Below are positions 41,868 to 46,822 of a stretch of DNA of 64,000 nt, one piece after another. Within the stretch, counting starts at the first letter, position 1; each line of letters opens with the position of its first letter. Source of the stretch: Spartobacteria bacterium (GTDB lineage Bacteria > Verrucomicrobiota > Verrucomicrobiia > Chthoniobacterales > UBA10450); NCBI GenBank assembly GCA_003167365.1, contig PMTM01000003.1, positions 97,645 to 161,644 on the forward strand. The letters are read 5' to 3'. The notes under the pieces are model-generated. The model was not told where the DNA came from and did no database searches. It worked only from the letters and a program-made list of their open reading frames with translations. The translations under genes and the position numbers were made by a program.

Positions 41868-43391
41868 CTATTCGATCTCGTTGACTGCGCTGATGAAATC
41901 ACCAAAATCCTTGCCATTACGCGCAGCGTGATTGAGCGCTTCAAGACGCGCATCGAGCACGGCTTCGGGCAAAATGACACGACGCGATTCCGTCCCCGTG
42001 CCAAAGACGATTTCGTCCCATTGCAGAGAGGTGATGTGATCGTTAAACCTCGCGACGGAGCGGCCACGAAAAAAGGCGCGCGTCGTCTCCGGCGGATTGA
42101 AGATCGAATTCTTGATTTCGTCTTCGCTGACGATGTGGCGAATCGATCCTTGACGCACGAGTTCGTAGTACAGGCCGCGATCCACATCGACATTGTGATA
42201 TTCCAGATCGATCGATTGCAGCCAGGGATCGCTCCAAGAAAGATTTTCCTCTTCCTGCAACGCGCTGAGCAGAGATTTTTTCGCAACCCAATCGACGCGG
42301 TCGCGCGTCAAAGTTACATCTCGTTCGAGATCGTTCAGAACCTTTTCCCACTCGCGTAGAATCCATGGTCGATCTTCGCTGCCGGTTTCGTTGTCGATCT
42401 TGGCAGCGGCTTTCAGGTAAATGCGTTGCACATCGATCGTGGAAATTTTTCGTCCGTCCTTTAGCTCGATGATCCAATCGTAAGTTTGGTCGCGACTAAT
42501 CGATTTGTTCGCATCGACGGCCTGCGCGATTTCGAGCTGCGGTGCTTGACCCCGCTCGATCAAATCGAGGACGAGAGCCGTGGTGCCAATCTTCATTGCC
42601 GTCGCCCACTCGCTCATATTTGAGTCTCCCAGGATGACATGAAACCGCCGGTAACGGCTGGCATCGGCATGCGGTTCGTCGCGCGTGTTCACAATCGGGC
42701 GGCAATTCATCGTGTCGATGCTTACGAGCACGCTGAAAAAATCCGCGCGCTGCGAAATTTGATAGATGCCGGGCTGACCAGCGGCGCTCTCGGCTTCAAT
42801 GCCCATCTTGCCCGCGCCGGCAAAAATTTGGCGCGTGATTAGAAACGGGAGAATGCCGGCGACGATTCGATCCCACGGAACATCGCGACGCATGAGGTAA
42901 TTGTCGTGGCAACCATAACTGTGTCCGAAGAAGTCGGTATTGTTCTTGTAGAGACGAACTTCCTGTCCAGCCTTCAACTTCTCGTTCCGGCGACGCGCGC
43001 ACTCTGCAAGGATGCGCTCGCCGCCTTTGTCTTGCGCAACCATCTGCCGAATTGTGGTGCACTCCGGCGTGGAATATTCAGGATGCGCGTGATCGTTATA
43101 AAAGCGCGCGCCATTGGAGAGAACAAGATCGCTTTTGATTTCCTCAAAAGTCAGCGGCCGATTCTTGTCGATCTCGTAGTAAGCCGATTCGTCCGTATCC
43201 TGACGCAACGTCGCCGCGCGAAAACCACGCGCATCGAGGTGAGGATCTTCCAGCGCGTAATCCCATTTCATGTGCGCGCCGTGCTCGGTGTAACACCGGA
43301 CGAGCTCGATCGACTCCGCCACCACATCGACGTTCTCCACCCCATTGACCGTGATCCCGTATTCCGTCTCGAGCCCAACCACCCGTTTCAT
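41868..43391 (-). CDS. dop: Pup deamidase/depupylase
   Basis: Dop removes Pup from tagged proteins and deamidates Pup-Gln to Pup-Glu. Of the PafA/Dop pair, this is Dop: it has GLETEYGI (metal Glu8, Glu10), WDYALEDPHLDARGF, an insertion loop of about 35 residues before NGARFYNDHAHPEYSTPEC (catalytic Asp100 in DHAHPEYS; PafA has DVGSHPEYAT), and LYKNNTDFFGHSYGCHDNYLM. It also has IINTRDEPHAD-like VNTRDEPHADASRYRR and FHVILGDSNMSEWA. The end reads FNPPETTRAFFRGRSVARFNDHI...WDEIVFG, again Dop-like. 507 residues is normal. pup, pafA and prcA/B are not in the window. Confidence 0.9.
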   Translation of the reverse strand: MKRVVGLETEYGITVNGVENVDVVAESIELVRCYTEHGAHMKWDYALEDPHLDARGFRAATLRQDTDESAYYEIDKNRPLTFEEIKSDLVLSNGARFYNDHAHPEYSTPECTTIRQMVAQDKGGERILAECARRRNEKLKAGQEVRLYKNNTDFFGHSYGCHDNYLMRRDVPWDRIVAGILPFLITRQIFAGAGKMGIEAESAAGQPGIYQISQRADFFSVLVSIDTMNCRPIVNTRDEPHADASRYRRFHVILGDSNMSEWATAMKIGTTALVLDLIERGQAPQLEIAQAVDANKSISRDQTYDWIIELKDGRKISTIDVQRIYLKAAAKIDNETGSEDRPWILREWEKVLNDLERDVTLTRDRVDWVAKKSLLSALQEEENLSWSDPWLQSIDLEYHNVDVDRGLYYELVRQGSIRHIVSEDEIKNSIFNPPETTRAFFRGRSVARFNDHITSLQWDEIVFGTGTESRRVILPEAVLDARLEALNHAARNGKDFGDFISAVNEIE

Positions 43392-43439
43392 CTTCCTTCA
43401 AGATAGTGTAATACTTCCGCGCGTCGAAACGGAATAGCC

Positions 43440-44191
43440 ATGCACATTGATCTCTACGCTACCTGTTGGAACGAGGAACGAATGATTCCGTTCTTTCTTC
43501 GGCACTATGAGCCTTTGGTGGATCGAATCGTGATTTTTGACGACGGTTCAAACGATCATTCGCTGGAATTGTTGAGAGCGAGCCGCAAAGTGGAACTGCG
43601 CCGGCTCCCGTCCGGGCTTTCGTCGATTCTCATGCACATGGAGGAGATGAATCGTTGCTGGAAGGAAAGCCGGGGCCGGGCCGATTGGGTGATTATCGCC
43701 GATCCGGATGAGCACTTTACCATCCACGCTTTCGCGAATATTTGGAACGCTGTAAGGCTGAGGATGTAACAATTCTGAATCCCGTCGGCGTGAACATGAT
43801 TAGCCCGCTTTTCCCGCCGCCCGACGCCGTTCTTTCCGAAACGATCCGGCGCGGTGTTCGCTCGTTTTGGCTCGATAAGCTGGCTGTATTCGATCCGAAT
43901 GCGATCGAGGAAATCAATTACACTCCGGGCCGACACCTAGCCGCGCCGGCTGGGCGAGCGATTTTCCCGCCCAAACGGGAAGTGAAGCTGCTCCATTACA
44001 AGCAGCTTGGGCTGGATTACTTGCTCTCGCGTTCAAATGAACTGCGACACCGCAGGACCGAGTACGATCGAGAACGCGGATGGGGTCTTCACGATTACAG
44101 GTCTGCCGGCGAAATTGAGCGCGACTTCAAAACGGTGCTGGGCGATGCGCAGGATATTTCCATGATCGGAAAACTTCCGGCCACGCCTTGA
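43440..44191 (+). pseudogene. frameshifted glycosyltransferase family 2 protein
   Basis: The first frame reads MHIDLYATCWNEERMIPFFLRHY...DRIVIFDDGSNDHSLELL...WVIIADPDEHF, a GT2-like nucleotide-sugar domain with DDGS and DPDEHF, then falls into unrelated sequence and stops at 43769. The +1 frame continues as YHPRFREYLERCKAEDVTILNPVGVNMISPLFPPPDAV...KREVKLLHYKQLGLDYL. Adding one T to the TTT at 43716-43718 rejoins them into one normal protein of about 250 residues. Either a real frameshift or a homopolymer error. It is divergent from dop. Confidence 0.8.
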
Positions 44192-45094
44192 TCAGCGGAG
44201 ATTATAAAATTCCACCAAGGCAATTCCGGTGGTGTTGTTCTTACCACGAACAATGGCCGTGTAAGCGCCGGGAGGTAAGATGGCGAAGATCGCCGGTTCA
44301 CGATCGTCAGAAGGTGCGAGACCGTTATCGAGGATTGCCTGTTGATTGCCTTGCTTCCAATCGTCGTTCGAATCAACGAGCGTGCCGTCCTGATTGTGCA
44401 ACTCGAGAACGGGATCTTGCATCGCGTTTTGAATGCCAAATGCACCGAGCGATGGACCGAGCGCTCTCGCTATGACGACGCTCACTCCGCCGTTTCCGCC
44501 ACCCAAAATCGCCCCGCCGATGAGCAGGTTATCGCCCAGATCGACAAATCCTCGCGCGCTCACGTTGGCAAGGCGCGCGTTAGCATTTAGATCGAGATCG
44601 TAGACCTCGAGAAGAACAATTCCCACGCTGCCTCCGGCGCCGCGCGCGATCGCCGTATAATCACCGGGCGCCAGCGTAGCCATAATCGCGGATTCGCGAT
44701 CGTCGGCCGGCGCAAGGTTCGTCGCCACGATTTGCGCTTGCTGCGTATCTTTCCAATTGTCGTTTGTCGCGATGATCGCGCCGGTTTGATCATGCAATTC
44801 AAGCGTGGGATCCGACAACGCGTCCGACACGCCGTATGATGTGAGCGATGGACCGAGCGCGCGGATGATCAAGTTCTTTGAATCGGTGCCGGTGATGATA
44901 AAACCGACGATTAAATTGTTCGCACCCGTTCCCGTGTAAAGACGGGAGGAAATATTCAACAACTGCCCAAACGGCTTGATATCCTGCGCTTTTGCCAAGT
45001 GAACAGACAACGCGATTACAAGCAATCCACGGGTGATCGCGGCCTTGATCTTCAAACTGGGCAGACGCCTCACAACTACAGGCGCGTATCGCAC
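44192..45094 (-). CDS. secreted two-repeat protein (NISSRL...DDRES family)
   Basis: After a signal region (RGLLVIALSVHLAKA) come two halves of about 120 residues with the same pattern. The first is LLNISSRLYTGTGANNLIVGFIITG, LIIRALGPSLTSYGVSDALSDPTLELHDQTG, IATNDNWKDTQQAQIVATNLAPADDRESAIMATLAPGDYTAIARG. The second runs ANVSARGFVDLGDNLLIGGAI, ARALGPSLGAFGI, DSNDDWKQGNQQAI, LAPSDDREPAIFAILPPGAYTAIVRG. This repeat is abundant in exported Verrucomicrobia proteins, often as a C-terminal part of larger ones; here it forms the whole protein. Function unknown. It lies between mpa and dop. Confidence 0.8.
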   Translation of the reverse strand: MRYAPVVVRRLPSLKIKAAITRGLLVIALSVHLAKAQDIKPFGQLLNISSRLYTGTGANNLIVGFIITGTDSKNLIIRALGPSLTSYGVSDALSDPTLELHDQTGAIIATNDNWKDTQQAQIVATNLAPADDRESAIMATLAPGDYTAIARGAGGSVGIVLLEVYDLDLNANARLANVSARGFVDLGDNLLIGGAILGGGNGGVSVVIARALGPSLGAFGIQNAMQDPVLELHNQDGTLVDSNDDWKQGNQQAILDNGLAPSDDREPAIFAILPPGAYTAIVRGKNNTTGIALVEFYNLR

Positions 45095-45136
45095 CCGCGC
45101 CGCAGTGTCAAAACAAAACGACGATTGCAGCGGAAT

Positions 45137-46822
45137 TCAGATGACGCCGCTGGAGCTTGATCGCGCATCAACGCCGAGCGGGCGCACCGGCGCGATTTTG
45201 ACAACGTTCTCCGGCTCGTAGTCGATCAACTTGAGCCAGTCCTCCGTGACATCGCTGGCCGGAAAGATGTCGTTTTCAGCGTACTCGGCGTTGAACGCGA
45301 GCCGCAGATCGTTTTCGCTAATGCCCTCGGCAAAGCCGGTAGAAATTGCGCGCTTGATCGCCATTGCTTTCGCGCGCTCGACGATCGACGCGATGATCGC
45401 GCCGCTGATGAGATCGCTCCGATAAGCAATTTCCTTCCGGCCGCTGCGCAACGTCACTTCGAGGAATTTGTTTTCTTCGCGGCGCGCAAACTGCCATTCC
45501 ACAAAGCGCTCGATCAAACGAGCAATGGCCTCGCCGATATGGTCGGCTTCCTTAGCGAGCACCCCGTCGTAAGGAAGATCGTCCGTGAGATAAATTCGAT
45601 AAATATCCCGCGCTCCGGCGCGATTCGGTCGATTGACTTTGATCTTCCGGTCGATCCGGCCCGGCCGCAAAATCGCGGGGTCGATCAAGTCGGCACGATT
45701 GGAAGCGAGGATAATGACGACGTCGTTGAGCGAATCGATTCCGTCCATCTCGGAGCAGAACATCGGAACAAGCGTCGAAAGAATATTCGAGTAACGCGAA
45801 GCGCGACGCGTGCCGAGAATCGATTCCGCCTCGTCGATGAAAACGAAAGGCATCAAGCCTTCGCGCCGTTTTTCGCGCGCCGTCGCAAAAACTTCGCGCA
45901 CTTGTCGTTCCGATTCGCCCACCCACATATTCAAAATCTCCGGGCCTTTAATGTGCATGAAATACTCGCGCATCTCCGCGCCGGTTTTTTCGCGAAGTTG
46001 CTTCGTTAAATTGTATGCGGTCGCTTTGCCGATGAGCGTCTTGCCGCAACCGGGCGGACCGTAGAGCAGGAAACCTTTCGGCGTCGCATGGCGGAATTTT
46101 TGGAAAAGATCGACATGCAAAATCGGGAGTTCAATCGCATCCTTGATCGCCTGAATCGCGGCTTCCTGTCCACCGATTCTTTCCCAAGGCAACTCGGGCA
46201 CTTCATCAAGATAATGCTCGTGCGATTTGGCGCTCGAAAGCATCTCAAGCGCCATCCGGTAATTCGGATCGACCCGCACCTCGTCTCCTGATTTCAATGC
46301 GGATCCGGCAAGGTCGGAGGAGCGTTCCAAGACGATCGACTGCGTCCCATGTTCCGAACCGACGCGCAAACGATCTTCCCCAATCACCTCAGCAATCTTC
46401 GTTACCGGGCCAGCCGTTTCAAAACCGAGATCGCCTACAATTACATAGGCCTCGTTCACAAGAACGCGCGTTCCCTTCTTCAGTTTCGCGAGCGGAATGC
46501 GCGGATCGACGTTGCAATAATAGTCGGCGCCACCCACCACGATATGCGCAGTGTCGCGTGACGTCGCTCCGAGAAATGTGCCGATGCGATTCGCCGGCGA
46601 AGTCACTTTCTTGATGACCTCCTCGAGCTTGCCGATCATGCGGCCAGCCTCAGTGATTGTTTCTTCCTGGTCGGCGATGCTCGATCTCAGATCGAGCAGA
46701 TCGCGACGCATGGGGTCGCCCGGTGGAAGGGACGCGAGCACGCGATCGAGTCGATCCAGAATTGAAAGCTCATGTGGACCGTCTTCCAGGTCCTCGAATC
46801 GTTCTTCGCGCTCGTCGCTCAT
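45137..46822 (-). CDS. mpa: ARC/Mpa-type proteasome-associated AAA ATPase
   Basis: A 561-residue hexameric unfoldase of the bacterial ARC/Mpa class. It has an N-terminal helical coiled coil (about 40-75, LLDLRSSIADQEETITEAGRMIGKLEEVI), tandem OB domains (about 78-200), and an AAA domain with Walker A GPPGCGKT (255-262), pore loop IKGPEILNMWVGE and Walker B FVFIDE (326-331). The sensor region ILASNRADLIDPAILRPGRIDRKI follows, then a C-terminal helical part. The protein ends PLGVDARSSSSGVI and lacks the terminal QYL motif that docks actinobacterial Mpa to the 20S proteasome. It is on the same strand as dop, 1.7 kb apart. Confidence 0.92.
   Translation of the reverse strand: MSDEREERFEDLEDGPHELSILDRLDRVLASLPPGDPMRRDLLDLRSSIADQEETITEAGRMIGKLEEVIKKVTSPANRIGTFLGATSRDTAHIVVGGADYYCNVDPRIPLAKLKKGTRVLVNEAYVIVGDLGFETAGPVTKIAEVIGEDRLRVGSEHGTQSIVLERSSDLAGSALKSGDEVRVDPNYRMALEMLSSAKSHEHYLDEVPELPWERIGGQEAAIQAIKDAIELPILHVDLFQKFRHATPKGFLLYGPPGCGKTLIGKATAYNLTKQLREKTGAEMREYFMHIKGPEILNMWVGESERQVREVFATAREKRREGLMPFVFIDEAESILGTRRASRYSNILSTLVPMFCSEMDGIDSLNDVVIILASNRADLIDPAILRPGRIDRKIKVNRPNRAGARDIYRIYLTDDLPYDGVLAKEADHIGEAIARLIERFVEWQFARREENKFLEVTLRSGRKEIAYRSDLISGAIIASIVERAKAMAIKRAISTGFAEGISENDLRLAFNAEYAENDIFPASDVTEDWLKLIDYEPENVVKIAPVRPLGVDARSSSSGVI

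Follow-up and report, generated by a model that had tools for sequence, protein, structure and literature searches.

The ATPase gene and its surroundings

The window, i.e. the whole analyzed stretch of 64,000 nucleotides from a soil-dwelling Spartobacteria bacterium, encodes an ARC/Mpa-type proteasomal AAA ATPase of 561 amino acids (45137..46822, minus strand). The protein scores over the Pfam cut-offs for PF17758, PF16450 and PF00004, so that OB domains of the proteasomal type and an AAA domain are both recognized. The OB domains (amino acids 79-195) are followed by the AAA domain (amino acids 252-397), a beta-grasp region and a variable C-terminal linker. The beta-grasp region aligns to Mpa and to two actinobacterial ARCs with no large gaps and, on the evidence of this alignment, is retained. 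The nearest proteins of solved structure are Mpa structures, with the best match to 5kwa (E 6e-103). In the NCBIfam family TIGR03689 (pup_AAA), the ATPase reaches 462.7 bits, under the equivalog cut-off of 504.75.

The same strand carries a gene for Dop, a 507-amino acid protein of the deamidase/depupylase type (41868..43391; PF03136, 1.5e-164; TIGR03688 depupylase_Dop, 492.7 bits, cut-off 492.3). The gap of about 1.7 kb between the two genes (43392-45136) holds a glycosyltransferase-like gene broken over two frames of the plus strand (43440-43769 and 43742-44191) and an ORF of 300 amino acids on the minus strand (44192-45094). In the relatives, ARC and Dop are mostly adjacent, with fewer than 700 bases between them, the exceptions being loci L148 and L230. 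At one locus (L085; genome G056, contig C66), ARC continues in frame into Dop as a single frame of more than 1000 amino acids that lacks the tail of ARC as well as the beginning of Dop; this frame could reflect a deletion, a true fusion or an assembly fault.

The C-terminal tail

The ORF of the ATPase (45137-46822, minus strand) ends with VVKIAPVRPLGVDARSSSSGVI, followed by TGA, and its final residues are DARSSSSGVI. The protein thus ends in GVI, with neither GQYL nor any aromatic residue in the next-to-last position, which is occupied by Val instead of the Tyr of HbYX-type motifs. The stop codon lies at 45137..45139 (minus strand), and neither the two other frames nor readthrough past the stop yields QYL or YL close to the C-terminus; a frameshift or readthrough that would give QYL back is thereby ruled out. 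The initial annotation was therefore correct in describing a Ser-rich end, ARSSSSGVI, that lacks QYL. Nor is the loss of QYL a local accident, because a next-to-last aromatic residue is lacking in every UBact-type relative.

The emphasis that the same annotation put on the Ser-rich stretch is a different matter: the stretch is present, but it is variable. Among the 106 distinct verrucomicrobial tails, positions -5 to -13 are highly variable, and the length of chain beyond the final folded block differs among relatives. From the per-position variability of these tails, the Ser/Arg-rich segment (45149..45200, minus strand) is probably merely a linker. What follows it is the C-terminal Gly-Val-Ile (45140..45148, minus strand), the last two residues of which, conserved in verrucomicrobial tails, make up the proposed 20S docking motif. 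The comparison of C-termini across verrucomicrobial ARCs that the initial annotation recommended separates a varying linker from a conserved final pair.

The last residue is Ile in 74 and Val in 31 of these tails, i.e. Ile or Val in 105 of 106, the single exception (Thr) coming from the broken reading frame of L229, a verrucomicrobial locus where the alignment ends at residue 528 with a foreign end after it and which was retained in the count. The next-to-last residue is Val (80) or Ile (21) in 101 of 106 tails, with Met in two and Leu, Thr and Ala in one each. The 30 distinct UBact-type tails from Poribacteria follow suit, with Ile 28, Val 1 and Leu 1 at the end and Val 26, Ile 3 and Ala 1 before it, so that for the two phyla pooled, Val or Ile stands next to last in 130 of 136 distinct UBact-type tails and an aromatic residue at -2 in none of the 136. 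Tails were counted as distinct by the last 28 residues, excluding ARC frames that run off the locus end (L085, L246, L253 and L254) and hits that end before profile position 525. A scan of named genomes with the UBact alignment yielded 80 loci, several of them poribacterial; 27 of the 80 have an ARC C-terminus, and 30 were taken to the next step. The actinobacterial controls comprise three rows, one of which, a Streptomyces plasmid fragment (L223), has a foreign end and no usable tail; the two intact tails both end in GQYL.

At their final codons, the verrucomicrobial tails use two codons for Ile and four for Val, and this synonymous variation indicates drift at the DNA level with the class of amino acid retained. 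As far as these alignments go, the conserved element is the terminal dipeptide, which the initial annotation missed, rather than the Ser-rich stretch, and a docking peptide is expected to look like this, with a conserved terminus carried by a variable linker. In a tree built from 43 ARC proteins, one fully supported branch divides the UBact-type from the Pup-type sequences, so that the switch of tail was a single, ancient event. The sequences, however many, are thus not independent of one another, and this counts against the docking-tail explanation.

Proteasome genes in the same genome and lineage

The genome that holds the window (3.13 Mb, rated 100% complete) encodes a 20S proteasome. Elsewhere in this genome, on contig C1, UBact, PrcB and PrcA are consecutive on one strand. 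UBact (L003:9729-9938) is a protein of 69 amino acids with the C-terminus RYRQRTGQ (PF20513, 1.2e-22; NF033388 is also over its cut-off), and PrcA and PrcB (L003:8120-9729) lie beside it. PrcB is recognized by PF00227 (1.7e-29) and aligns to PrcB of Mycobacterium tuberculosis (Mtb) starting at the catalytic Thr. For PrcA, the Pfam score (21.5 bits) falls short of the cut-off (22.4), but the protein has a match to its Mtb counterpart at 2.8e-14. Like the ATPase, PrcA and PrcB score below the NCBIfam equivalog cut-offs, and we count these low scores of all three proteins against the docking-tail explanation. Genes of the Pup-ligase family occur in exactly two places in the genome, namely, Dop in the window and a PafA-like gene on contig C14 that is closer to PafA, yet falls under the PafA cut-off. 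The genome accordingly has the UBact tag gene, PrcA and PrcB beside it and two enzymes of the Pup-ligase family. A search of the genome found no second ARC-type ATPase; at E 1e-5, the ARC protein matches just one further sequence, which shares 38% identity with it over the AAA domain only.

The proteasome genes track the ATPase across the lineage. Among 288 genomes sampled from the phylum, ARC is present in nine (E below 1e-200, with two weaker, AAA-only matches set aside), UBact is over its cut-off in the same nine, and PrcB is found in these nine and in one more (G086). The additional PrcB relative (contig C303:3164-3814) is 52% identical and comes from a genome with no ARC or UBact match. 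The family to which the window belongs is represented by 83 genomes, of which 78 have ARC and 74 have PrcB; in the good genomes of the family, each is present in 30 of 30.

The C-terminal residue of UBact is Gln in the genome of the window (L003) and Glu in another member of the family (G038, L087), so the need for deamidation by Dop may differ within one family. Verrucomicrobial-type UBact loci also occur in public MAG records that bear the names Klebsiella, Akkermansia or Proteobacteria (L148, L143, L201 and L145); these records are probably misnamed bins. A search for relatives of PrcA in phages found none.

Two proteasome systems in Poribacteria

Of the 84 Poribacteria genomes, 82 have ARC matches, mostly two each, and 75 have UBact. 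In one of them, G398, the UBact locus has the order ARC(...SPSPVI)-Dop-UBact-PrcB-PrcA-PafA and the Pup locus the order ARC(...KGGTYL)-Dop-Pup-PrcB-PrcA-PafA (L285 and L286; Dop and PafA are named here from gene place and opening residues). Poribacteria thus carry two bacterial proteasome systems per genome, Pup and UBact, and in G398 each system comes with its own set of genes. Twenty Pup-type and 20 UBact-type loci (L287-L326), fetched from a longer list, together with the two of G398, give 42 poribacterial loci. The ATPases on the Pup side end in YL or FL in all 21 examined loci, with Gly at -4, and those on the UBact side have an aliphatic end in all 21. The two kinds of tail, aliphatic and [YF]L, coexist in many of the same genomes.

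The alpha-ring pocket of PrcA

For the Mtb proteasome, the tail Tyr is described as contacting Arg26 or Glu119 of PrcA, whereas the tail carboxylate can bind Lys52 and the tail Gly contacts Asp144; degradation driven by PafE is reported to require Arg26 and Lys52 (PMC9599533). In the alignment of PrcA subunits, Lys52 is present in all 132 fetched proteins (rows distinct by exact string, so that one protein truncated differently at the ends of two loci could appear as two rows) as well as in Mtb. At position 119, all 20 Pup-type subunits (18 of 18 from Poribacteria, the single one from Nonomuraea, and Mtb) have Glu, whereas all 113 of the UBact type have Leu or Ile there and retain Asp144.

Arg26 is missing from all 113 UBact-type subunits, and a simple co-change of the tail Tyr with Arg26 appeared clean until Poribacteria were added. 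Arg26 turned out to be missing also from 17 of the 18 poribacterial Pup-type subunits, the partner ATPases of which are still Tyr- or Phe-tailed, so that this residue is not a clean marker. A control shows how position 119 is to be read: 23 of the 175 alignment columns, position 119 included, fully separate the two PrcA types, six (again including 119) are invariant in the Pup type and never found in the UBact type, and eight, including Lys52, are invariant throughout. Given these 23 columns, the co-change of the tail and position 119 in the alignments is suggestive only, and the agreement of this position with the tail type could have arisen by chance.

A probable aliphatic docking tail

We assign a probability of about 0.72 to the explanation that the ATPase in the window is the unfoldase of the UBact-type (Gram-negative) bacterial proteasome and docks on the 20S core through a flexible linker with two terminal aliphatic residues, here Val-Ile-COOH, in place of the actinobacterial GQYL. 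Under this explanation, the six flexible tails of the hexamer would enter the pockets of the alpha ring, where the terminal carboxylate would pair with the lysine equivalent to M. tuberculosis Lys52, as in the known activators. The aliphatic next-to-last side chain would pack on the Leu or Ile that replaces the actinobacterial Glu119, the wall of the pocket now being hydrophobic. The beta-grasp region could provide a second contact and extra affinity, given that its hairpin makes contact with the alpha ring in the case of Mpa. Proteins tagged with UBact would then be threaded by the motor into the PrcBA 20S core of the same system. The V/I-I/V end, as a sequence feature, is most likely a second, aliphatic docking tail; the docking itself, the opening of the gate and degradation are what we infer. 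More tentatively, and at somewhat less than even odds, bacterial proteasomes may employ two docking codes, one aromatic ([YF]L with Glu119, for Pup) and one aliphatic (V/I-I/V with Leu/Ile119, for UBact), that in Poribacteria would keep both ATPases on their own 20S cores.

Among the alternatives, the one that fares best, although we consider it unlikely, is that the beta-grasp hairpin and the ring surface dock alone and the dipeptide owes its conservation to something else, for example autoinhibitory tucking into the pore or protection from tail-reading proteases. In Mpa, the beta-hairpin is described as touching the alpha ring and the C-terminus as able to face back into the pore (PMC9599533, PMC8755798); Cpa reportedly binds the 20S core without a GQYL motif (PMC8223512), and the beta-grasp region is present in the ATPase of the window. 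Hairpin-only docking accounts less well for the two tails that match two 20S cores in Poribacteria and for the invariance of Lys52 in every PrcA examined, which is expected if the C-terminal carboxylate still binds.

Less probable still is the first suggestion of the initial annotation, that the ATPase works without a 20S core, as an unfoldase alone. The idea was reasonable: the ATPase lacks QYL, Actinobacteria without 20S genes are reported to lose the C-terminal motif of ARC (PMC3511204), and ARC of Corynebacterium glutamicum has been proposed to unfold ferritin without degradation (PMC8223512). However, the search for prcA and prcB that this annotation called for found both, directly behind UBact and with a PrcB alignable from the catalytic Thr on. 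Their presence in the genome and the co-occurrence of the genes in the phylum and the family, with PrcB in all 30 good family genomes, make the orphan-unfoldase reading fail. Besides, a tail released from docking should decay, yet its last two residues are conserved. The other branch of the same suggestion, docking by another route, is the one favored here, the presumptive route being a different, conserved aliphatic C-terminus. Equally improbable is that some other, Tyr-tailed activator serves the 20S core while ARC has a separate job: activators other than ARC, namely, Bpa and Cpa, are known in Actinobacteria (PMC8223512), but the genome has no match to the Bpa family, its only other ARC match is the AAA-only one, and the Leu/Ile119 of UBact-type PrcA would fit a Tyr tail poorly.

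Prior knowledge and significance

Proteasome genes of Methylacidiphilum have been on record since 2008 (PMC2474590), and the proteasomes of Gram-negative bacteria, the verrucomicrobial ones included, are reported to group into alpha and beta subclusters of their own (PMC5666114). The ProEnd paper describes an HbYX-type motif common to all known caps in eukaryotes and actinobacteria (PMC11475706), and the next-to-last aromatic residue is currently taken as a general signature of ATPases that open 20S proteasomes. Neither the aliphatic tail nor the pair of proteasome systems in Poribacteria was found described in the literature searched; within that literature, the tail code of the UBact-type ATPases is new. 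If the docking-tail explanation is true, a whole branch of bacterial proteasomes employs an aliphatic pair with a matching pocket change, which would mean that the tail-pocket code is rewritable. The roles of the Tyr, the carboxylate and the pocket lysine would become separable by experiment, the genomes with two systems being a natural test of specificity, and such ATPases would no longer be misread as orphan unfoldases.

Comparison with known systems

The ATPase resembles the actinobacterial Mpa/ARC (TIGR03689; PDB 5kwa, 7px9) in its OB domains, AAA motor, beta-grasp region and partnership with a Pup-like tag and PrcBA, but is 37-38% identical to it and belongs to a separate clade, with the V/I-I/V end and UBact in place of GQYL and Pup. 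The genome of the window is a member of the UBact system of Gram-negative bacteria (PF20513), with UBact, PrcB, PrcA, Dop, PafA and ARC all present, Dop and ARC being located apart from UBact-PrcBA. ARC of the proteasome-less Corynebacterium likewise lacks GQYL, but prcBA is described as absent there (PMC8223512), whereas the genome of the window has it and so does not belong to this type.

The activator tails of the HbYX/GQYL kind (PAN, Rpt, Mpa, PafE/Bpa) are similar to the tail described here in being a short C-terminal motif on a flexible linker, as reported also for the GQYL of Mpa (PMC8755798), with the pocket lysine retained; they differ in the next-to-last aromatic residue, which is absent here. 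In the case of HslU on HslV, a C-terminus without HbYX docks between the protease subunits, although HslU belongs to another ATPase family and retains a conserved Phe or Tyr; as described, it provides a precedent for an ATPase tail that lacks the HbYX motif and can dock into a proteasome-like protease (PMC11475706, PMC4106860).
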